A stretch of DNA of 64,000 bases. It comes from Lacipirellula parvula. GTDB lineage: Bacteria; Planctomycetota; Planctomycetia; Pirellulales; Lacipirellulaceae. A program made the position numbers and the translations under genes. Within the stretch, counting starts at the first letter, position 1; each line of letters starts with the position of its first letter. Of the stretch, positions 15,397 to 63,352 are shown in pieces. The stretch is taken from NCBI RefSeq assembly GCF_009177095.1, contig NZ_AP021861.1, forward strand, positions 3,640,501 through 3,704,500. The letters are read 5' to 3'. The notes beneath the pieces are model-generated. The model saw only the letters and a list, made by a program, of their open reading frames with translations. It searched no databases and was not told the DNA's origin.

Positions 15397-15483
15397 TAGC
15401 CCCGGGCTTCGCCCGGGTGTTGCCGATCGCGCGACGATGCTTATCGGGATGGTTAGCGACCCCCGGGCGGAGCCCGGGGCTAG
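15397..15483. repeat. TAGCCCCGGGC long inverted repeat, copy 1
   Basis: Left arm TAGCCCCGGGCTTCGCCCGGG and right arm CCCGGGCGGAGCCCGGGGCTA enclose about 45 bases that include GCGCGACGATGC. Other copies at 21111-21196 and 54613-54703 share both arms and parts of the middle. Confidence 0.75.
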
Positions 15484-21023: not shown

Positions 21024-21110
21024 GTCGACAATATACCGCCTCATCGCGGTTAATCGCAGGCGTGTGCCTCGGCACGATCCGACGAATGCGAACGGATCGC
21101 GACGCATTCT

Positions 21111-21196
21111 TAGCCCCGGGCTCCGCCCGGGGGTGGCGTAATGCGCAACGATGCGTAGCGGAATAGAAACCGACCCCCGGGCGGAGCCCGGGGCTA
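21111..21196. repeat. TAGCCCCGGGC long inverted repeat, copy 2
   Basis: Left arm TAGCCCCGGGCTCCGCCCGG, right arm CCGGGCGGAGCCCGGGGCTA, middle with GCGCAACGATGC. It lies between larE and the DUF4912 gene, both coded on the minus strand. Confidence 0.75.
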
Positions 21197-21213
21197 GGGG
21201 CGAAGCGCTCGGC

Positions 21214-48363: not shown

Positions 48364-49107
48364 CTACCGACGCCGGCGGCGTTGCGCCAGCCCGACCAGC
48401 AGGGCGGAACCAGCCAACGTCGCACACGCTGGCTCCGGCACCGATGCGACCGCTCCGCCGACGCGCTCGATATACCCGTAAGCCCCCGTGAGGTCGAAGC
48501 CGTGGCCGTTGCCGCCGTCACCGACGGCGAGATCGATCGTGCCGCCCGCGTTCAGGTGAATCGGAGCGGCGGGAACGAACGTGGGGCCAGCGCCGAGGAC
48601 TTCGCCCACGCGAATCGCGTTCACCGCTCCACTGTAACTGTCGGCGCCGTTGATCATCACGTGAACGTCGGTCGAAGGGGCGACAATCGAGTTGTTGCCC
48701 GTAAAACTGATGTTGAACGTGTAGTCGCCGGCAGTGGGCGCCGTAAATCGCAACGCTCCGTAGACGCCGCCCGCGCCAGGATGGATGGTCAACGAATTAG
48801 CCGGCCGACCGCCGCCGTAGGCGTCTTCGGCAAAATTGTCACGGAGATTGAATTCGAGGTTGGCGCCCGGGCCCTCGTCGATCCACTGGACGAAGACTAG
48901 GTCGTCGAGCCGTCTGGTGAAAACTGATTTACGCATGGGGACGAACGCCGCGCTGAGCGACGCCTTCGACCCATAGGTCCAGGGCCCGGCGGTGCTAGGG
49001 TTTTTGATGCGGTCGACGCCGTCGACCCAGTTGTAAATGACAGCGTACGCCGACTGCGAACCGAGAGCCGCACAGGCGACGAGCGCGAGTAGGAAGCAGC
49101 GAATCAT
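48364..49107 (-). CDS. PEP-CTERM sorting domain protein, paralogue A
   Basis: 247 residues. Signal peptide (RCFLLALVACAALGSQSAYA), a single beta-sandwich body (VIYNWVDGVDRIKNPSTAGPW, YGALRFTAPTAGDYTFNISF, IHLNAGGTIDLAVGDGGNGH) and a PEP-CTERM tail (VPEPACATLAGSALLVGLA then RRRRR). It should be exported and processed by an exosortase-type system. Very similar in plan to the next gene upstream on the strand (49168-50100), so the two came from one duplication. The body lacks known catalytic motifs. Confidence 0.85.
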   Translation of the reverse strand: MIRCFLLALVACAALGSQSAYAVIYNWVDGVDRIKNPSTAGPWTYGSKASLSAAFVPMRKSVFTRRLDDLVFVQWIDEGPGANLEFNLRDNFAEDAYGGGRPANSLTIHPGAGGVYGALRFTAPTAGDYTFNISFTGNNSIVAPSTDVHVMINGADSYSGAVNAIRVGEVLGAGPTFVPAAPIHLNAGGTIDLAVGDGGNGHGFDLTGAYGYIERVGGAVASVPEPACATLAGSALLVGLAQRRRRR

Positions 49108-49167
49108 GATAATCCCTCGAAATCAGGAATTTGATTGAATGGATGAGGGGCAAATAAAAGGCTTAAC

Positions 49168-50100
49168 TCAGCCAACCAGACCGCGACGGCGCGTCCGCAC
49201 GGCGACGAGCGACGCGCACGCCATAACGGCGAGCACGGCGCAGCCCGGCTCGGGCACGGCCGCTGCGGCTCCGAAGGACGCCGCTGGACCGAACGTACGC
49301 TGCCAGAGGAGGAAGTCTTTGCCGTCGACGACGCCGTCGCTGTTGCCGTCGGCGTTTGGCGCCGGAGGAATGGACGCGGCATGGAACTGCGACTTCCAGA
49401 CCGTCAGGTCGTCCTTGTCAACGTCTCCATCGCCGTCGTAGTCGCCCTTCGGTTGCGAGGCGCTGGCAATGAAGCCAGCGATGCCGGTGAGATCGGACGC
49501 ATAGCCGTTGTTGCCCGCACCGACCGCGATATCGATGGTGCCGCCGGCAGCGAGCTGAATCGGCGCCGGCGTGACAAAGTGCTGCCCGACGCCCAACGTC
49601 TCGCCGACGCGTGTGCTGTAAACCAAGCCGCTGAACTGCGTGACGCCATTGACGAGGATCACGGCATCGCTGGTCGTCCCGGCGCTGCTGTTCCCCGTGA
49701 AGTTAACGTCGAAGGTGTAAAAGTCGGCGGTGGGCGCCGTGAACCGGAGGACGGCATACTCGGCGCTGCTGCCGGGATGCAGCGTCGCCGAGCGCGGGGC
49801 CCGCGCCCCGCCGTACGGATCGTAGACCCAGTTGTTCGTCATGTTGAATTCAAGATTGGCGGCCGACAGGTCGTTAATCCACTGAACCTGAACGTATTGG
49901 CCGTCGTAAGTCGTCACGGTCGATGTTTCGGCCGCCTCGAACGGCTGCCCGAGCGCAAAGAACGTGCCGTAGCTCCACGGTCCGTTTTGGCTGGGGTTGC
50001 TATCGCCGACTCCGGCAACCCAGTCGTAGACGATCGCTTGAGCATTGCGACTGGCCAGCGCGACGGCCAACGCAACCACGAAACAGGTGATGCGAGACAT
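49168..50100 (-). CDS. PEP-CTERM sorting domain protein with dockerin-like unit, paralogue B
   Basis: 310 residues. Signal peptide (RITCFVVALAVALASRNAQA); body VIYDWVAGVGDSNPSQNGPW, YAVLRFTAPTADFYTFDVNF, IQLAAGGTIDIAVGAGNNGY matches paralogue A strand by strand. It has an extra EF-hand/dockerin-like section (KGDYDGDGDVDKDDLTVW and NADGNSDGVVDGKDFLLWQR) between body and the PEP-CTERM tail (VPEPGCAVLAVMACASLVAV then RTRRRG). Probably in one transcript with A, 60 bases apart. Confidence 0.85.
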   Translation of the reverse strand: MSRITCFVVALAVALASRNAQAIVYDWVAGVGDSNPSQNGPWSYGTFFALGQPFEAAETSTVTTYDGQYVQVQWINDLSAANLEFNMTNNWVYDPYGGARAPRSATLHPGSSAEYAVLRFTAPTADFYTFDVNFTGNSSAGTTSDAVILVNGVTQFSGLVYSTRVGETLGVGQHFVTPAPIQLAAGGTIDIAVGAGNNGYASDLTGIAGFIASASQPKGDYDGDGDVDKDDLTVWKSQFHAASIPPAPNADGNSDGVVDGKDFLLWQRTFGPAASFGAAAAVPEPGCAVLAVMACASLVAVRTRRRGLVG

Positions 50101-50268: not shown

Positions 50269-52344
50269 TTAACCCCCTTGTTCCTTCGTCAGGAAATAAA
50301 GTCCCGCGCTCCGTTTTTCTCCGAGTTTCGCGTTCAGCCCTTGATCCATGAGCTTCGCGCCCGACTCGGTCCAGGCGTCGCCGCCGCTGAGCGGCTCAAT
50401 CCGGTACTGTGCGGCTGGGTCGAGGCCTTGCAACTTCAGCGACTTTTCCGGCTCCTCGTTGTCTTGACGGCGGAAGGCCTGAACGACCGCTTCACCCTTT
50501 TCCGGGTTGTTGAATTGCCAAGCAATCCATTCGTTCGTGGCGAGGCTGTGCGGCGTCAGAGGGTAAAAGTCGCTGGAGTAGAGCGGGGAGATCTTCTTGA
50601 ATTCGCCGACCAAACGACGCAACGAGTCGTAGTCGAGCGCCTTGTCGCGGAGGTCCCAGCAAGCGGTGAAACTCGGCGCGATGTGGCTGCGGAAGTCGTA
50701 GCCGCTAACGCCTTCGCCGGTGTTCAGGCCGATGGCGCTCTTACCGACTAGCGTTCCCGTGCCGTGATAGGGAATCCACAGCGAAATACCGTAGGTGTGC
50801 GCTTGTTGGCCGGTCGGTTCGAACAGGAAGTCGCTACGTAGCAACGGCACGCTGCGCCGCATCGACTCGAGATCCATCCGCCGACCGCCACTCGCGCAGT
50901 TGTCGATGCGGACGTTCGGATGGGCGGCAAGAATCCCGTCCCAGTAGGCGAGGTAGCCTTCAATGTAGTGATTTTCGGCAATGCCTTGCCGATCTTCGGC
51001 CTCGCCATTCCGCCAGAACATCAGCGGATCGACGTTAAAATCTTGCCGATACAGATCGATGCCTTGGCTCTCGATCAGATCGTTGACGTGCTTTGTGAGC
51101 CACTCGCGAGCTTCTTTGTTGCCTAAGTCCAGGAGGCGCCACCGCTCGTCGTAGGCTTGATTGCCTGGATTCGGCGGCGGAGTGAGCAGCCACTGCGGGC
51201 GTTCGTTGTAAAGCCACGAGTTCGGCGCGACGCGTTCCGGCTCGAACCAGACGATAGACTTCACGCCCTTCTCATGGCCGTGATCGGTGATGGCGCGCAG
51301 ACCGTTCGGGAAGCGATTCTTGTCCACTTCCCAGGTGCCGGTCGTGACCCACGTGCCGTCATTCGGGTACCAGCCCGCATCCATCCACCAGTAGTCGAGC
51401 GGAAACTTCTCTTCGAGGTAACGGTCGATGAATTGCTTTTGGTTTTCTTCATTGGCGTTGAGCATCTCGTTGAACTGATGCGAACTGCACGCCACCATTT
51501 GCGCGGGCGGAAGCTTGCCTTCCGGACGCGGCAGATTGTGGGCGACCACCCAACGGCGCCAAATGTTCTGGCCGCGAATCCAATCGCCGTCGTAGGCTTG
51601 GACGACGATCAGCGGAGTGCGGGCCGATTCGTTCGGGTGCAACTTGAAATGGGCCGCCTCTTGGCCGCCGCGGACGATGAGCTCTCCGGCTTCGTTCCGC
51701 TGCATACTGAGATTCCATTGGCCGGGCCAGCCCATGACCACGATGAGCCCTTGCTTGCCCCAGTTGACGTTGAAGTAGGGCCAATCGCCGTTAGTACCGC
51801 GTCCGCCGGCGGACGCGAACTTCTTGTCTGTGCCCACGTCGAGCGCGGTTTGATACGGCTCGAAGTCGTTGGGAACGGCCGTCGAACCCTTTTGATGATG
51901 CAGCGTCGCCTTCGCATCAAGCGGAATCGCCTGAGTCAGATCGATCGCCTGAATCTCCGAGAGGATCGGGCTATCTTCCTTGCCGACGTTCGTGAAGCGG
52001 ACGGTCCATTCAACGCTCGGATAGTCTTTGTAATCAACGGCGACGACTTGCGTCTCGAGCCCCGTTTTTGCATCGTTCCATTTCAGCGTCCGGCGAACGG
52101 CATAGTCGCCAAGCTTCTCGCTGCTCACGGTCGGCTTCGAGCGGCCGAGCACCGTGGCCGAACTTTCATCGCCCAACTTGAAGCTGAACGGCAGCTTCGC
52201 GACGTCGCCGCCGAAGTGCTCGTCGGCCCAACGCGTCGAGGACGCAAGTTCGCCCTCGGCCAAAAAAGAAGAGGCTGTGTCCGCGTGCGCAACGCTCGAC
52301 ATCCAGCCAACGGCCAACAACATCACTAGAGCAGACGATTTCAT
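50269..52344 (-). CDS. Secreted GH36-type alpha-galactosidase
   Basis: 691 residues, ATG at 52344. Signal peptide (SSALVMLLAVGWMSSVAHA). The N-terminal beta-sandwich to about residue 300 is followed by the TIM barrel with DYWWMDAGWYPNDGTW, KSIVWFEPERVAP, the nucleophile Asp in LYRQDFNVDP (D435) and the acid/base Asp in LLRSDFLFEP (D505), and NCASGGRRMDLESMRR. All are hallmarks of GH36/GH-D alpha-galactosidases. It should release a sugar, probably galactose or a related unit, from glycans outside the cytoplasm. Its upstream region, shared with the divergent fusion gene, holds operator-like palindromes. Confidence 0.9.
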   Translation of the reverse strand: MKSSALVMLLAVGWMSSVAHADTASSFLAEGELASSTRWADEHFGGDVAKLPFSFKLGDESSATVLGRSKPTVSSEKLGDYAVRRTLKWNDAKTGLETQVVAVDYKDYPSVEWTVRFTNVGKEDSPILSEIQAIDLTQAIPLDAKATLHHQKGSTAVPNDFEPYQTALDVGTDKKFASAGGRGTNGDWPYFNVNWGKQGLIVVMGWPGQWNLSMQRNEAGELIVRGGQEAAHFKLHPNESARTPLIVVQAYDGDWIRGQNIWRRWVVAHNLPRPEGKLPPAQMVACSSHQFNEMLNANEENQKQFIDRYLEEKFPLDYWWMDAGWYPNDGTWVTTGTWEVDKNRFPNGLRAITDHGHEKGVKSIVWFEPERVAPNSWLYNERPQWLLTPPPNPGNQAYDERWRLLDLGNKEAREWLTKHVNDLIESQGIDLYRQDFNVDPLMFWRNGEAEDRQGIAENHYIEGYLAYWDGILAAHPNVRIDNCASGGRRMDLESMRRSVPLLRSDFLFEPTGQQAHTYGISLWIPYHGTGTLVGKSAIGLNTGEGVSGYDFRSHIAPSFTACWDLRDKALDYDSLRRLVGEFKKISPLYSSDFYPLTPHSLATNEWIAWQFNNPEKGEAVVQAFRRQDNEEPEKSLKLQGLDPAAQYRIEPLSGGDAWTESGAKLMDQGLNAKLGEKRSAGLYFLTKEQGG

Positions 52345-52609: not shown

Positions 52610-52624
52610 AATTATATTACAATT
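52610..52624. promoter_or_regulatory. Operator-like palindrome, site 1
   Basis: AATTATATTACAATT, a near-palindrome with one changed base against the FadR/GntR pattern TNGTNNNACNA. It overlaps the TATAAT of the minus-strand (galactosidase) promoter at 52611-52616. Confidence 0.55.
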
Positions 52625-52695: not shown

Positions 52696-52724
52696 TTGAC
52701 GCCGGGCGGCACGATAATTATCTT
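52696..52724 (+). promoter_or_regulatory. Promoter of the bisphosphatase-kinase fusion gene
   Basis: TTGACG at 52696-52701 and TATCTT at 52719-52724 with a 17-base spacer. The -10 box lies inside the site-2 palindrome, and site 3 covers the likely start point, so binding there would block transcription. Confidence 0.5.
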
Positions 52725-52730
52725 ACAATT
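52716..52730. promoter_or_regulatory. Operator-like palindrome, site 2
   Basis: AATTATCTTACAATT; its right half matches TTACAATT of the other sites, and the left half differs by one base. Confidence 0.5.
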
Positions 52731-52734
52731 CAGT

Positions 52735-52751
52735 TAATTGTAATACAATTA
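52735..52751. promoter_or_regulatory. Operator palindrome, site 3 (perfect)
   Basis: TAATTGTAATACAATTA, perfect 8-base arms around one centre base. It contains TTGTAATACAA, which fits the FadR-subfamily GntR consensus TNGTNNNACNA. It lies 62 bases before the fusion gene start. Same site at 57848-57864. Confidence 0.7.
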
Positions 52752-52812: not shown

Positions 52813-54579
52813 ATGAGCCTAATCACCGCCGCTCGCGACGCTTCGCCCGTCACCCGAAACGTTACTTCTCCGCTCCCGCATTCTTCCCGCATTCATCTCG
52901 ACCTTCTGCAGTTCGATTTCCTGCGGGCGACCGAACTCGCGGCGTTGTGTTGCGCGAAGTGGATCGGGCGTGGAGAGAAAAACGCCGCCGACGCGGCCGC
53001 CGTCGACGCCATCCGATCCGTGTTCGACGGCATGGAGATGCGCGGCGAGATCATCATCGGCGAAGGAATTAAGGACGACGCCCCCGGATTGTTCCAGGGC
53101 GAGAAAGTCGGCAAGTGGGGACACGAGACGCCGCGCGTGGACATTGCGATCGATCCGCTCGACGGGACGACGAACCTCAGCAAAGGACTCCCTAACGCCA
53201 TTAGTTGCATCGCCGCCGCTATTCGACATGACGAAAACACCCCGGCTCTGCAGCTAGTCCCATCATTCTACATGCGGAAACTGGCCTATCCGGCCGCGAT
53301 GGAAGCCGCCTGCCGAAACGACCCATCGCTGCGGCCGGACATCGACGCACCCTTCTGCGACGTGATCGCACAGACTGCGCGAGCGCTCAAGAAAAAGCCG
53401 CATGAAGTCGTTGTGATGTGCTTAGATCGTCCCCGCAATCAAGCAATTATTGAAGGAGCGCGCGAAGCAGGCGCGACGCTGCGTCTTATCGTCGACGGCG
53501 ACATCTTGGCGGCCCTGGCCCCCGCCATCGCCTCTTCGGGCATCGACCTGTACGCCGGCATCGGCGGCGGCCCCGAAGCGGTGCTCGCTGCCGTCGGGCT
53601 ACGCTGCCTAGGAGGCGAAATGTTGGGCCGGATGTGGACTCGCGATCCCGCTGAGCTTGCCGAATTGCAAGCAGACGGTTGGGGAGAGCGTCTCAACCGC
53701 ATCTATCGCTCTGCGGATTTGGCGCGGGGACACGACATGCTGTTCGTAGCCAGTGGAATCAGCGACTCCAGCCTGCTGCGAGGCATTTGCCGCGATGGCG
53801 CCAATGCGACGACGCACTCAATCCTCATGCGTTCGCAAGCGCCTGCCATCCGTCACATCCAATCGGCCCATCGCGAAACGCCGCCAACGGCGCCGCTAGA
53901 ACTTTCCCCTGCCGATCAGCGACGCTACGATCGCCCCGCAGTCGCGGCCGTTAACGGCCGAAAGTTGTCAATAAAAGAATCGCCCGCGACTCGCGCTGCC
54001 TTCTCTGGAGTCGTGCTTGTCGGCGCCCCAGGCTCCGGCAAAGGAACAATCGGCAAGATTCTCAATCGAATCGACGGGTTTGCCCATATTTCGAGCGGCG
54101 ACGTCATTCGCCAGTCGATGACGGAAAAGTTGCTCGACGTCGATGGGCAGGCCACGTTGGCGCAGGGAGGGTTTATTTGCGATGCCCAACTCTGGCGATT
54201 GTTCGATTCGCACCTGGCGAGCTTGCTGCACAATGACAAAACCTTCGGCTACTCGAAGCAGCTCGTGCTAGACGGCGTGCCGCGCACGCGCAGCCAGGTC
54301 GACGAACTAGCCAAACGCGTCGACGTGCGAGCCGTCCTCTACTTTGAATGCAACAACTTGGACGTGCTTCGCGAACGCCTATCGCACCGTTCGCTGGTGG
54401 AAGGACGCATCGACGACGGCGTTCAAGAAGTGATGCAAAACCGCTTCCGGCTCTTCGAAGAGGAAACAGCTCCGCTGCTCGAAGCCTACCCGGCGAGCAT
54501 GGTACATCGCATTGACGCAACGCTGAGACCGGCGCATGTGCTGGCCGACGTGCTCGCTCAGATCAACCGGCTGGGGTAG
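52813..54579 (+). CDS. Fusion of class II fructose-1,6-bisphosphatase (GlpX) and adenylate kinase-type domain
   Basis: 588 residues in one frame. Residues about 30-340 are a full GlpX-type phosphatase: LGRGEKNAADAAAVDAI-like KWIGRGEKN, IIGEGIKDDAPGLFQGEKVG (metal ligands), AIDPLDGTTNLSKGLPNAIS (D114 region) and GIGGGPEAVLAAVGLRCLGG. Residues about 396-588 are an adenylate-kinase fold: GAPGSGKGT (P-loop, about 404-412), HISSGDVIR (NMP side), LVLDGVPRTRSQVDEL and a short-lid RSLVEGRIDDGVQEVMQNRF. Both halves keep their key residues. A linker of about 55 residues, Pro/Arg-rich, joins them. GlpX splits fructose or sedoheptulose bisphosphates; the kinase would transfer phosphate among nucleotides. 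I know of no described protein with this pairing. Confidence 0.88.
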   Translation: MSLITAARDASPVTRNVTSPLPHSSRIHLDLLQFDFLRATELAALCCAKWIGRGEKNAADAAAVDAIRSVFDGMEMRGEIIIGEGIKDDAPGLFQGEKVGKWGHETPRVDIAIDPLDGTTNLSKGLPNAISCIAAAIRHDENTPALQLVPSFYMRKLAYPAAMEAACRNDPSLRPDIDAPFCDVIAQTARALKKKPHEVVVMCLDRPRNQAIIEGAREAGATLRLIVDGDILAALAPAIASSGIDLYAGIGGGPEAVLAAVGLRCLGGEMLGRMWTRDPAELAELQADGWGERLNRIYRSADLARGHDMLFVASGISDSSLLRGICRDGANATTHSILMRSQAPAIRHIQSAHRETPPTAPLELSPADQRRYDRPAVAAVNGRKLSIKESPATRAAFSGVVLVGAPGSGKGTIGKILNRIDGFAHISSGDVIRQSMTEKLLDVDGQATLAQGGFICDAQLWRLFDSHLASLLHNDKTFGYSKQLVLDGVPRTRSQVDELAKRVDVRAVLYFECNNLDVLRERLSHRSLVEGRIDDGVQEVMQNRFRLFEEETAPLLEAYPASMVHRIDATLRPAHVLADVLAQINRLG

Positions 54580-54612
54580 GGCAGGGCAGGTCGCGATAGC
54601 GCCTTCGTCTTC

Positions 54613-54703
54613 TAGCCCCGGGCTCCGCCCGGGGGTCGGGTAGCACTACGCGCGACAATATCTACCGATTTGGAAACCCACCCCCGGGCGGAGCCCGGGG
54701 CTA
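54613..54703. repeat. TAGCCCCGGGC long inverted repeat, copy 3
   Basis: Left arm TAGCCCCGGGCTCCGCCCGG, right arm CCGGGCGGAGCCCGGGGCTA, middle of about 50 bases that is less like the other two copies. It lies between the ends of the convergent fusion gene and the lactonase gene. Confidence 0.75.
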
Positions 54704-54712
54704 CAGCGAGGC

Positions 54713-55648
54713 TTACTTCGCGCCTGCCGTCTGGAGCTTGACCGCGAAGAGCGAGCTCGAAGCGCCGATGAACAAAGTCTGCTTATCGGACATGCCGAAG
54801 GACAGATTACCGACAGCTTCAGGCGTCAAAATCTTGCCCAGCATTTTGCCCGCCGGATTGAAGATCTGGACGCCATCGCCCGCCCCGACGTAGACGTTGC
54901 CGTCGACATCGCAACGGAAACCATCCGGCACCCACGGATTGATATCGGCGAACAGCCGCGGATTCGAGAGCGTGCGGCCGTCAGCCTGCACGTCGAACGC
55001 CATCAACCGGTGCGGGCGAAACGCACCGTGCGTCATGCCGGTATCGCCGATGTATAGGATTCGCTCGTCTGGCGAGAAACAGATGCCGTTCGGCTTGTCG
55101 AAGTCTTCGCTGGCGATCGTGACTTCCAGCGTATCGGGCGCCACCCGGTAGACGCGGTTGCGGTGTTGTTCCGGCGGTTGGCAGTGGCCGAATTCAGCGA
55201 CCAACCAGCCGTAGTCGGGATCAGTGAACCAAATGGACCCATCGCTCTTCACCACCACGTCATTGGGCGACGTTAGCTTCTTCCCGTCGTAGGAATCGGC
55301 GAGTACCGTCTGCGACCCGTCATGCTCAAACCGCACGACCGAGCGTGCGCGGGTAAGGCAGGAGATGACTCGCCCCTCTGCATCAACCGCATTGCCGTTG
55401 GCCGTCTGTGCCGGTTGGCGATAGACGGTCAGGCCTTCGCGCTCCGTCCACTTCATCACGCGATCATTCAGGAAATCGCTGACGACCAAAAATTGTCCTT
55501 GCTCGACCCAGCAGACGCCTTCAGAGAACTTGAAATCGTTCGACAGCAACTCCAGCTGCGGGTTGGAACCGAGAATGCGACGGAACTCGTCGCTATAGAT
55601 TTCGAACGGCGCTGAAGTCGCGGAGGCGGCGAGAGTCGATGCAGACAT
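54713..55648 (-). CDS. SMP-30/gluconolactonase family protein
   Basis: 311 residues from the ATG at 55648, with an AAGAAG site before it. It has the six-bladed propeller marks of the family: FSEGVCWVEQGQFLVVSDF, LTSPNDVVVKSDGSIWFTDPDYG (metal-binding Asn/Asp), KPNGICFSPDERILYIGDTG (metal-binding Asn/Asp) and VPDGFRCDVDGNVYVGAGDG. Members hydrolyse sugar lactones to the acids in the cytoplasm or periplasm; no signal peptide is seen here. It is the last gene of the TauD-SDR-lactonase operon. Confidence 0.9.
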   Translation of the reverse strand: MSASTLAASATSAPFEIYSDEFRRILGSNPQLELLSNDFKFSEGVCWVEQGQFLVVSDFLNDRVMKWTEREGLTVYRQPAQTANGNAVDAEGRVISCLTRARSVVRFEHDGSQTVLADSYDGKKLTSPNDVVVKSDGSIWFTDPDYGWLVAEFGHCQPPEQHRNRVYRVAPDTLEVTIASEDFDKPNGICFSPDERILYIGDTGMTHGAFRPHRLMAFDVQADGRTLSNPRLFADINPWVPDGFRCDVDGNVYVGAGDGVQIFNPAGKMLGKILTPEAVGNLSFGMSDKQTLFIGASSSLFAVKLQTAGAK

Positions 55649-55785
55649 AATCGGTGCTTCTTGCTGATTAGACTTGTGAAGGACTGCGACGGTGAAAGAC
55701 GGCGACAAGCAGCGGAGTCGCTGCCCTGGCCAAGCTAGAGCCACGACTACGCTCGTCGAAAACACGCTGCCGGTTAGCAGCAACC

Positions 55786-56574
55786 TCAGAAATCCCTAAA
55801 GAATCCGCCGGCCGTCCAGCCGCCGTCGACAGCCATAATTTGGCCAGTGATGTAGCCGCTTTCCGGAGCGCAGAAGAAGAGAACGCCGTGCGCCATCTCT
55901 TCGCACGTTCCGGGCCGGCCGAGGGGGACGTGGCTAAGCAGCCGCTCGGCACGCTCGCGTTCGCTGGCGTTCTCGCCGTAGTACAGCCCCTTCGTCCCCT
56001 CGGTCAACGTCGAACCGGGCGCCACGCAATTCACAAGAATATTGTGCGGGCCCAACTCGATCGCGGTCCCTTTGGTCATGTGCACTAGCCCGCCCTTCGC
56101 GGCGATAAACGCGCACTGCAGGCGAACCGGCACGATGCCCAGGGACGATGCGATGTTGACGATGCGCCCGCCAGTTCCCTGGCCGATCATCACGTTGCTC
56201 ACCGCCTGCGTCACCAAGTAGGTGCCGGTGAGGTCGACGTCGACGATTCGCTGCCATTCCTCGAGCGGGAACTTGTCGATGTTGACCCGATGCTTGGCCG
56301 TATTGACGCCGGCGTTGTTGATCAGGATGTCGATGCCGCCAAGCTGTTTGACGACGTCGGCGACGCCGTGATCGATGGATTCCTTCTTCGTGATATCCAT
56401 CGTCACGGCGATCGCGCCGTCAACTTTAGCGGCCGTTTGCTTGGCAAGTTCGCCGTTGACGTCAGTGAAAGCGACTCGCGCGCCGTTGGCCGCAAGGGTC
56501 TTCGCAATCGCTTCTCCAATACCTTGCGCGGCGCCCGTCACGAGGGCGCGTTTGCCTTCCAATGCCACTTTCAT
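55786..56574 (-). CDS. SDR-family sugar dehydrogenase-like protein lacking the catalytic Tyr
   Basis: 262 residues from the ATG at 56574. Cofactor motif TGAAQGIGE, ILINNAGVNTAK (NNAG) and IASSLGIVPVRLQCAFIAAKGG. The catalytic Ser (S143/S144) and Lys (K160) are present, but the Tyr of YxxxK is Phe156 (codon TTT). The C-terminus (DGGWTAGGFFRDF) is of the usual sort. The family oxidises sugars to lactones or keto-acids with NAD(P). The loss of Tyr needs explaining: the protein may use another proton donor, or be a changed enzyme. In an operon with TauD-like and lactonase genes. Confidence 0.88.
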   Translation of the reverse strand: MKVALEGKRALVTGAAQGIGEAIAKTLAANGARVAFTDVNGELAKQTAAKVDGAIAVTMDITKKESIDHGVADVVKQLGGIDILINNAGVNTAKHRVNIDKFPLEEWQRIVDVDLTGTYLVTQAVSNVMIGQGTGGRIVNIASSLGIVPVRLQCAFIAAKGGLVHMTKGTAIELGPHNILVNCVAPGSTLTEGTKGLYYGENASERERAERLLSHVPLGRPGTCEEMAHGVLFFCAPESGYITGQIMAVDGGWTAGGFFRDF

Positions 56575-56655
56575 GTCGTCATGCTTTCCCGGATGAGATA
56601 AATTGGCCTCCGCACATCGTGCGGAGGCCTGCGAACCTGACAAGTAATGCTCTTC

Positions 56656-57729
56656 TTAACCGCGATCATCGGCCGCAAGCGCGGCGAGAATCTTGCGGGG
56701 CGGCGAATACGGCTGCCGACCGTGCGAAACAAGCTTATTGTCGCAGATGAGCAAGTCGCCGGCCTTCCAATCGAACATGGTCATCGTCTTGTCGATCGTT
56801 TGGCGAATCGTTTCGAGGTCGCTCACCATGATCTCCGATCCATCGGCGTGCGTCGAGTGATAGAAGAACCGTTTTGACAACTCAGGACGCCGACGGTTGG
56901 CCTCATCGATCTGCTCGGGAGTCGTGCCGAGGAAATCGCCCTTCCACGGGGCGTATTCCTTATGCAGCAGGTGAGCCTGGTTGAACCAGATCTTCTCGCC
57001 GGTGACGCGGTGCGACTTGGTCGTGGGCGAAGGCTTTTGATAGACGCGAACGCCGCCGTCGTCGGTCCATTCGATGCGCCAGCCCCGCTTCTCGGCGAAC
57101 GCCTCGGCTTCCTTTTTATCGGAAGTTCCGAACATCGTGGGCCAAGTCACTTCGTGGCCCGCTTCCTTCGTGAACGGCAGTTGGCGAGTGAGAATAAGCC
57201 CCTTCGACTCAAAGCGTTCGATCAGGTCCTTAGGCAGCCGTTCCAGCACGACCCGCATATCGCAGATCGGCGTTTGACCAGCGCCGCCTGGTTCGATTTC
57301 GCAGAAGAACGCGACCTTGTCCGGCGTCGGGTCGGGGAAGCTGGCGGAAGGCTCAAGGTAGCTCATCTCTTGATGGAGCCCGATCGTCATCTGGGCCGGG
57401 GCGTCGGTCGACGAGACAATCTTGCCGCTCACCGCGCTGCGAGGCGTGGTGCCGCCGGCGTAGTCGAGCAGCGTGTGCGACACGACCTTCATCACCGCTT
57501 CGAAGTCTTCAGCCCCAGTGAGGGACTTGAATCCGCGGAACAGGATGGCTCCGTGCTTTTGGAGCTTCGTTTCAAACTCTTGCCGATTCGCAGCGATCCA
57601 ATGCAGCAGTTCCTCGCGCGATACGTTCGCCTTCTCCGGCTTGGCTTCGATCACCAACGGAAGAGGGGTGCCGCTGAACGTTTTGAAGGTCGCCAGTTCA
57701 CTAACTGGCACTGGCTTCTCACTGATCAT
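56656..57729 (-). CDS. TauD/TfdA-like Fe(II)/2-oxoglutarate dioxygenase
   Basis: 357 residues from the ATG at 57729. Facial triad IGLHQEMSY (HxE in place of HxD) and distal His in KLVSHGRQPYSPPRKI, whose Arg residues bind 2-oxoglutarate. A GAILFRGFKSL start and the DYAGGTTPRSAVSGKI loop match the SyrP-like branch of TauD/TfdA. It would hydroxylate a substrate using 2-oxoglutarate and oxygen. First gene of a three-gene operon behind an operator-overlapped promoter. In sugar pathways such enzymes are unusual. The frame allows a start at 57762. Confidence 0.87.
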   Translation of the reverse strand: MISEKPVPVSELATFKTFSGTPLPLVIEAKPEKANVSREELLHWIAANRQEFETKLQKHGAILFRGFKSLTGAEDFEAVMKVVSHTLLDYAGGTTPRSAVSGKIVSSTDAPAQMTIGLHQEMSYLEPSASFPDPTPDKVAFFCEIEPGGAGQTPICDMRVVLERLPKDLIERFESKGLILTRQLPFTKEAGHEVTWPTMFGTSDKKEAEAFAEKRGWRIEWTDDGGVRVYQKPSPTTKSHRVTGEKIWFNQAHLLHKEYAPWKGDFLGTTPEQIDEANRRRPELSKRFFYHSTHADGSEIMVSDLETIRQTIDKTMTMFDWKAGDLLICDNKLVSHGRQPYSPPRKILAALAADDRG

Positions 57730-57847
57730 GATTGCCTCGGTTAATTGAAAATGTCGTCGCACAGAGCTGCGTCGGAATGCCGCGAGAGAAGATGTTTCCG
57801 CGCGTAACGCAGAGTGCGAATAGGCCGCCGAATGCCGCCGTCGAATC

Positions 57848-57864
57848 TAATTGTATTACAATTA
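57848..57864. promoter_or_regulatory. Operator palindrome, site 4 (perfect)
   Basis: TAATTGTATTACAATTA, perfect 8-base arms around one base, differing from site 3 only at the centre. It overlaps the -10 box of the promoter of the TauD operon and is 119 bases from that gene's start. Confidence 0.7.
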
Positions 57865-62080: not shown

Positions 62081-63352
62081 TTACCACCGTTTGAGTGAGT
62101 CTATGGTCGTCGCTTCCCAGACCGCATCCGGCCGCGACATGAAATCGTCGCGGAGCTGCGTCCCCAGGCCTGGCTTGCCGTCGAGGAACAAGTGGCCTTC
62201 GACGACCTTGATTTTGTCAGTCACGACTTCGTTGTACCAACCGTCGATGTAGCCGCGCACGGTTTCCATCGTCATTGCGTTGGGAATGTGCAGCATGAGG
62301 TGGGCCGCAGTCCAGAGCCCGACCGGGCCGATCGTGTCGTGCGACGTCACAGGCAGGAAGTAGGTATCGGCCAGGCTGCAGATCTTCCGCCCCTCGGTGA
62401 ATCCGCCGCACCACGAGAAGTCGGGCATGATAATATCGGCGGCGTGCTTCTCGACCCACGGACGCATGTGGTAACGAGTGAAGACGCGCTCGCTCTGGCA
62501 AATCGGGATGCTCGTTTCCGTCTTCAGCCGAACATAGGCGTCGACATTGTCAGGCGGCATGATCTCTTCCAGCCACATGATGTCGAGCGGTTCGAGCGCC
62601 TTCGCAATCCGCGTCGCGGCTGGCAGATCCCAGCGGGCGTGGCCTTCGATGGCGATCTCCATCCGGTCGCCGACGGCGCGGCGGATGTCTTCGACGATCG
62701 CACAGCCGCGACGGATTTCTTCGTTGGTAATCGAGTGACCTAACGTGCCGGCCGCCGTCTTGCCGCCCCACATCACGACCGGTTCTTTCGGCCGCGTCGG
62801 GCCGGCTAGCGTGGGCCCGAACTGATCGAACGGCCAGATCTTCATCGCCCGCACGCCTTGCGCGAGGAGCGACTCGGCAACCTGACCCGCGCGGCCTTCC
62901 ATGATGTCGTCGAGGTCGCGGTTAGTGCCCGTGCTGACGCAGGTGTTGTACACCTGAATTCGATCGCGATTCCTGCCGCCGAGGAGGTTGTAGATCGGCT
63001 GGCCAAGGTGCTGCCCAGCCAAGTCCCACAGGGCAAAGTCGATAGCTGAGAGAGCCCGCATTTCCGCGCCGGCGTAGCCGCAGAAGTTGGCGAGCGAGAA
63101 ACAGTTGTTCCAGTGATTCTCGATGTCGAGCGCGTCGCGACCCAATAGCAGCGGCGCGTAGATATCGTGAATGACGGCCGAAAGGGCGCGCGGCGTGTAA
63201 TAAGTCTCGCCGAGGCCGACAAGCCCGTCGTCGGTGTGAATACGAACCCAAAGGTTATTGGGCATCGCCTGCCGGGCGACCTTGTTCTCCGCTTGCCACG
63301 AGTCGGCCGACTGCGCATCGAAACGAAGCGTTTCGATTTTTACGATCTTCAT
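62081..63352 (-). CDS. Enolase-superfamily sugar-acid dehydratase (mandelate racemase group)
   Basis: 423 residues. Metal ligands E236 (IEGHARWD), E262 (WLEEIMPP) and E288 (CQSERVF), spaced 26 and 26, and the His-Asp pair H338 (TSHDTIGP) with D311 (MPDFSW), plus K171 (MKIWPFD) at the end of the second strand. This set is that of the mandelate racemase/galactonate dehydratase subgroup, and EGHARWD/LEEIMPP resemble sugar-acid dehydratases. It would abstract the alpha proton of an aldonic acid and remove water to give a 2-keto-3-deoxy acid. First gene of the transporter operon; 104 bases from the upstream gene. Confidence 0.92.
   Translation of the reverse strand: MKIVKIETLRFDAQSADSWQAENKVARQAMPNNLWVRIHTDDGLVGLGETYYTPRALSAVIHDIYAPLLLGRDALDIENHWNNCFSLANFCGYAGAEMRALSAIDFALWDLAGQHLGQPIYNLLGGRNRDRIQVYNTCVSTGTNRDLDDIMEGRAGQVAESLLAQGVRAMKIWPFDQFGPTLAGPTRPKEPVVMWGGKTAAGTLGHSITNEEIRRGCAIVEDIRRAVGDRMEIAIEGHARWDLPAATRIAKALEPLDIMWLEEIMPPDNVDAYVRLKTETSIPICQSERVFTRYHMRPWVEKHAADIIMPDFSWCGGFTEGRKICSLADTYFLPVTSHDTIGPVGLWTAAHLMLHIPNAMTMETVRGYIDGWYNEVVTDKIKVVEGHLFLDGKPGLGTQLRDDFMSRPDAVWEATTIDSLKRW

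Follow-up and report, generated by a model that had tools for sequence, protein, structure and literature searches.

One open frame in the 64,000-nucleotide stretch of Lacipirellula parvula DNA analyzed here (the window) encodes both a GlpX-type class II fructose-1,6-bisphosphatase (FBPase) domain and an adenylate-kinase domain. The frame runs without interruption for 588 codons, from an ATG at 52813 to a TAG that ends at 54579, and is divided as follows:

52813-54579, plus strand: fused gene, GlpX-type class II fructose-1,6-bisphosphatase and adenylate kinase, 588 aa (open reading frame, Pfam, NCBIfam, codon score)
52906-53871, plus strand: GlpX domain, residues 32-353 (Pfam, alignment to 6ayy, model, Foldseek)
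53878-54003, plus strand: linker, approximately residues 356-397 (alignments, translations)
54004-54576, plus strand: adenylate-kinase domain, approximately residues 398-588, with a short lid

Both domains exceed the curated Pfam gathering scores. FBPase_glpX covers residues 32-353 (E 5.7e-99, 331.3 bits against a curated score of 27) and ADK (PF00406) covers residues 402-560 (E 3.4e-19, 69.9 bits against 26.8), which bears out the initial annotation of the gene as a single-frame fusion of the two. The catalytic motifs quoted in that annotation are all present (DPLDGTTN at residues 114-121, GAPGSGKGT at 404-412, LDGVPRT at 486-492, and the short lid); the linker, given there as about 55 residues, is about 42 residues long. 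In NCBIfam, the GlpX half misses the glpX equivalog cut-off (250.3 versus 259.3 bits) and the kinase half misses that of adk (TIGR01351, 94.5 versus 168 bits). Given that these matches are to the right families and fall below the curated cut-offs, both halves are considered divergent family members, and we claim for them the family names alone, not the glpX equivalog and TIGR01351 names.

By a codon-usage score trained on seven other window genes, the fused frame exceeds both remaining forward frames at each of the 27 steps (50 codons) that span the two halves and the junction. The score is weakest over the linker, where it is close to zero and frame 0 is still the best forward frame. In relatives, the place of the linker is taken by a conserved C-terminal GlpX tail, RKTIHLRST. 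This tail is missing from all three forward translations of the junction, making a sequencing frameshift between two genes unlikely, and glpX and adk were seen as adjacent genes in no relative examined (tblastn of 80 loci; 53 short loci). Based on the codon score, the absent tail and the lack of adjacency in relatives, the fusion is taken as real. The source genome is one contig of 6.92 Mb. A frameshift, which the initial annotation had named as a possible flaw, left no signature and was rejected, as the codon score favors one frame throughout. It is thus very improbable that assembly or sequencing error joined two genes, even though the codon signal is lowest exactly at the junction and the fusion has no counterpart in a second genome.

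The GlpX half shares its whole domain and fold with the class II FBPases GlpX of E. coli and M. tuberculosis and the FBP/SBPase of Synechocystis; these enzymes end in a C-terminal tail, whereas the fused protein continues into the linker and the adenylate kinase. The ten catalytic residues given for the M. tuberculosis enzyme (PMC5892879) are all kept (D60, E84, D114, D117, T119, Y153, R206, R208, D230 and E255, mapped by hand on an alignment to 6ayy, the M. tuberculosis enzyme), including the Asp of DPxDGTT. The Thr is the proposed nucleophile of class II FBPases (PMC10289334). In addition, of the 84 positions that do not vary among 29 relatives picked from the 80 clade loci described below, the GlpX half keeps 79; all 29 relatives are standalone proteins and at most 60% identical to it. 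The model of this half has a pLDDT mostly above 90 and is predicted to adopt the GlpX fold: the best Foldseek match is 7txb_A (E 2.2e-36, TMt 0.94, rmsd 1.9), and all 24 matches at E ≤0.001 are class II FBPase chains. The genome has no other PF03320 match and none to class I FBPase (PF00316), so that the fused gene is the sole FBPase found by these two family searches.

The AMP-stacking residue is Phe309 in the Synechocystis enzyme, with Tyr279 as the equivalent in M. tuberculosis (PMC5892879). In the alignment to 6ayy, the residue opposite Tyr279 is Asp328, and AMP inhibition of the Synechocystis type is therefore not expected. The proposal that the protein senses energy charge by AMP inhibition of GlpX is hence not supported for the known site, as judged from the sequence; other AMP sites may exist.

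The kinase half keeps 34 of 45 positions that are invariant in 12 standalone kinases and has changed at the remaining 11; in the same leave-one-out test, the 12 kinases keep 92-100%. The positions kept include the P-loop, R433, DGxPR, Q495, R522, R526, R532, D534, D535 and R544. K410, R433, D487, R491, Q495, R522, R526, R532 and R544 are all present, and cover the signature residues, namely the P-loop lysine, the NMP-site arginines, DGxPR, and the lid and catalytic arginines; G429-D430, R433, G488, R491 and Q495 form the AMP-site signatures and are kept. Together with the ten GlpX residues, this agrees with the earlier claim that both halves keep their catalytic motifs. The NMP-kinase fold is complete in the model. 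In the tree, the kinase half clusters with standalone planctomycete PF00406 kinases and apart from the order's canonical Adks (support 100/99). It shares with these standalone kinases (e.g., loci L078-L091) the spacing of the NMP-binding part and the signature residues, but at only about 32-40% identity, and differs from them in being fused and in its far longer branch. For 9 of 12 genomes tested, the kin gene is the sole PF00406 member present, which suggests that the kinase half is ancestrally an adenylate kinase. Unlike those nine, the genome studied here also carries a second, canonical housekeeping Adk, which falls outside the group of the kinase half.

The fusion appears to be rare. Whole-protein searches covered overlapping sets: 97 relatives and, by rank, genomes from the phylum (392), class (397), order (396), family (43) and genus (6). 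Among the matches listed, from about 1,020 genomes, both halves occur in one place in the window's genome only and no second fusion was found (in the phylum, order and class searches, the best three candidates per genome were scored, and a fusion would rank near the top). The same-domain-pair search that had been proposed thus gives an occurrence of one genome and not a widespread protein. A GlpX match at E ≤1e-20 is present in 8 of the 43 family genomes, counting the window's own. A scan of named genome contigs for the GlpX clade kept 80 of 226 relatives, mostly from Verrucomicrobia and Planctomycetes, and none of these 80 loci has a kinase beside GlpX by tblastn, with flanks often shorter than 10 kb. 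This count rests on tblastn and not on the survey of open reading frames, which picked the GlpX frame in 74 of 91 loci. Coverage extends over the window's phylum, with Verrucomicrobia represented by loci among these 80. Six exact peptide patterns taken from the fused protein have no match in the named genome contigs. As the fusion was seen in a single genome, there is no conserved partnership to back functional coupling of the two halves. The initial annotation's view that such a protein is undescribed fits searches of the open-access literature, in which no paper on the pair was found.

Several candidates for further fusions were rejected. Five long GlpX frames (782, 782, 482, 457 and 455 aa) are N-terminal over-extensions or, in one case, a masked stretch. 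The matches in genomes G084 and G907 that run past the stop towards the kinase half lead to no kinase (53 short loci). A wide family of such fusions was dismissed because neither the whole-protein searches nor the clade loci contain one. A conserved glpX-adk neighborhood was dismissed as well: only genome G034 has an adk near a clade GlpX, and this single case is unremarkable since that genome has three adk genes.

Both halves have diverged strongly. In its tree, no end branch is longer than that of the GlpX half (0.99 versus a median of 0.09; 57 rows, made up of every third of the 80 loci and other chosen rows), and the same is true of the kinase half in the kinase tree (2.81 versus 0.36). 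Fast change with the active sites kept is compatible both with a new role and with constraint that is relaxed elsewhere in the protein.

The fused gene is divergently oriented to an alpha-galactosidase gene, and one further operator-like site of the window lies before a group of three genes:

50269-52344, minus strand: divergent GH36 alpha-galactosidase (melibiase; Pfam Melibiase, 2.8e-27), with an apparent signal peptide (by eye)
52610-52624, plus strand: operator-like 15-nt site AATTATATTACAATT
52716-52730, plus strand: operator-like 15-nt site AATTATCTTACAATT, overlapping promoter-like matches on both strands
52736-52750, plus strand: operator-like 15-nt palindrome AATTGTAATACAATT, overlapping promoter-like matches on both strands
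54713-55783, minus strand: SMP-30 type lactonase, behind the 57849 site (Pfam)
55786-56643, minus strand: SDR, behind the 57849 site (Pfam)
56656-57762, minus strand: TauD-type dioxygenase, behind the 57849 site (Pfam)
57849-57863, no strand assigned: fourth window copy of the palindrome, 87 bp before the TauD-like gene
62081-63352, minus strand: enolase-superfamily sugar-acid dehydratase, galactonate-dehydratase-like, with no exact operator site (NCBIfam 203.3 versus 311 bits, below cut-off)

The 468-bp intergenic region common to the fused gene and the GH36 gene holds three copies of AATTRTNNTACAATT, which is absent from shuffled sequence, and three promoter-like matches where 0.5 are expected. 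This arrangement agrees with the proposal that the gene is controlled from the same region as a galactosidase, and points to a putative shared control region. Genome-wide, the palindrome occurs at 10 distinct places (14 strand rows), six of them within 40 kb, and a reversed control pattern at none. When the three intergenic copies are counted together, the 10 places make eight loci, seven of which lie within about 350 bp before sugar-type or regulator genes; as the pattern was derived from the copies beside the fused gene, the fair count is six of the seven other places. GH36 genes are found at four loci (in one case following an Ldh_2 gene), and other loci have the TauD/SDR/SMP-30 genes, a galactonate-dehydratase-like enzyme, and a single site common to a 2-hydroxyacid dehydrogenase and a GntR-FCD regulator. 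The eighth locus (C1:3168489) has no sugar-type or regulator neighbor by eye. Repetition of an operator-like sequence ahead of a number of genes of a single pathway, and also ahead of a GntR gene, is regulon-like and makes the GntR protein (L234:16672-17451) a candidate regulator.

The same region as the operator sites also encodes a KDG-type sugar kinase (L235:5553-6596, below NCBIfam cut-offs), a KDPG-type aldolase (L235:14981, over the TIGR01182 cut-off) and a DapA-family protein; the latter two genes each have a one-mismatch operator site. Most sugar-acid enzymes of the gene set score below curated NCBIfam cut-offs. The kinase resembles, below cut-off, the kinase part of the KHG/KDPG aldolase/sugar kinase fusion NF041633. 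That protein is likewise a fused pair in sugar-acid breakdown, although of other enzymes than GlpX and adenylate kinase, and its kinase and KDPG-type aldolase are separate genes here. The palindromic site common to galactoside and sugar-acid genes and to a candidate GntR regulator supports a sugar-catabolic setting for the fused gene, in line with the role first suggested. The further statement that this role is "not general gluconeogenic" is perhaps too strong, because the gene is the sole FBPase found in the genome and a pathway yielding triose phosphate and pyruvate would need an FBPase.

Other features of these regions were also recorded. Behind one operator-like site at L234:9816-16540, a single strand encodes the E1 and E2 components of a 2-oxoacid dehydrogenase, an FAA hydrolase, an Ldh_2 protein and a 2-hydroxyacid dehydrogenase, a possible sugar-acid degradation operon. 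At L235:8861-12722, a cytochrome P450 gene and a GH36 gene flank an operator-like site. Downstream of the alpha-galactosidase (48364-50100, minus strand) are two adjacent genes that resemble each other and have signal peptides and PEP-type anchors at the C-terminus, all judged by eye.

The fused protein is most likely a bifunctional enzyme. We give a probability of about 0.5 to the reading, drawn from sequence and gene context, that one chain comprises two working enzymes, a class II FBPase and an adenylate kinase, made during growth on alpha-galactosides or on the sugar acids that these give rise to. The pathway would oxidize galactose-type sugars to sugar acids and cleave these into pyruvate and glyceraldehyde phosphate. 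Since a galactoside/sugar-acid path yields no hexose phosphate, inducing an FBPase would be reasonable; the GlpX half would turn trioses into fructose-6-phosphate. The kinase half would return AMP to ADP, with AMP coming, for example, from an apparent pyruvate, phosphate dikinase (PPDK), for which matches occur in one open frame of 892 codons. The tether would most likely fix 1:1 co-expression and bring adenylate turnover to a phosphatase whose relatives are tetramers, and would not require an allosteric switch. The single frame, the two modeled folds, the catalytic residues, the operator-like site, the lack of another FBPase in the family searches and the PPDK-type frame all argue for two working enzymes. 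Against this reading stand the restriction to one genome, the very long branches, the 11 changed kinase invariants, the NCBIfam cut-offs missed by both halves and by most sugar-acid genes, and the second canonical Adk. Moreover, an FBPase may not be indispensable: the genome has three PFK-family genes, one of which, by its motif, is presumably PPi-dependent, and an enzyme of this type could run the same step backwards.

Another reading takes the kinase half as a regulator, whose binding of ATP, ADP and AMP and open-closed motion would tune the GlpX tetramer to energy charge. With Asp328 at the stacking position, an added adenylate-binding domain could supply the absent control, and both halves have evolved fast. 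Chlamydomonas adenylate kinase 3 has a comparable tie to central carbon metabolism, through a CP12-like tail that binds GAPDH (PMC9406205); the likeness is in logic only, as the tie is a short tail there and a whole catalytic domain here. We consider regulation of this kind unlikely, as the kinase half has preserved its catalytic residues, for which a pure sensor would have no use. The full-length model, made from an alignment without rows for the kinase half, speaks neither for nor against domain contacts or a disordered linker. The bolder version is rather doubtful: a self-contained energy-charge switch for gluconeogenesis, induced with the galactoside regulon, in which the built-in kinase would set or sense adenylates beside a GlpX without the known AMP site. 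It would be a bacterial counterpart in logic to eukaryotic PFK-2/FBPase-2, whose single chain holds a kinase as well as a fructose-bisphosphate phosphatase, both acting on fructose-2,6-bisphosphate. That enzyme combines another phosphatase family with another kinase reaction and is an analogy, not a relative.

The long branches, and the one occurrence in about 1,020 genomes among the matches listed, would also follow from a recent neutral event in which a translocated adk copy lost its start beside a glpX copy and is now tolerated or decaying, with no meaning for control. The loss of the conserved GlpX tail and the presence of a housekeeping Adk fit such an origin. It is nevertheless quite improbable, because the 79 GlpX invariants and the kinase signature residues are kept after long divergence, the frame has neither stop nor frameshift, and the gene sits under a regulon-like operator. 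The kinase branch of 2.81 could instead reflect changed specificity, with the kinase half acting on another small molecule of the pathway and the GlpX half on another bisphosphate, so that kinase and phosphatase would serve one pathway together. The sugar acids handled by this gene set could be of several kinds, and the GlpX relative of G034 belongs to a sugar-type cluster that has an additional adk at a distance of about 3.9 kb. However, the AMP-site signatures are kept, the G034 adk groups with canonical Adks, and one adk neighbor among approximately 100 GlpX loci (some of them duplicates) is about what chance would give; changed specificity is thus an improbable explanation as well.

If both halves work, a control point of gluconeogenesis and an enzyme that balances ATP, ADP and AMP would sit in a single chain, and whether tethered adenylate turnover alters the flux or control of a sugar phosphatase could be tested directly. 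Should the kinase half be a sensor, the protein would represent a new bacterial way to put FBPase under energy charge. If the fusion is neutral, it would be a clean case of fast post-fusion divergence with active sites kept.

Two further observations concern the surroundings of GlpX genes. The G034 cluster (L061, L062) contains, next to GlpX and the extra adk, a DeoR-like gene (by eye), kinases of the FGGY and PfkB types, two DeoC/LacD-type aldolases (one identified by Pfam, the other by eye), a PIG-L deacetylase, a class III aminotransferase, and two related proteins of 322 and 308 aa without a Pfam match; it is possibly an undescribed amino-sugar pathway. In the window, the fused gene is directly followed by a G+C-rich inverted repeat, CTAGCCCCGGGCTCCGCCCGGGG (54612-54704), that recurs at 15461-15483 and 21110-21197. 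With five window matches at two or fewer mismatches, none in shuffled sequence, and a fold z of -6.15, it looks like a dispersed intergenic hairpin element.
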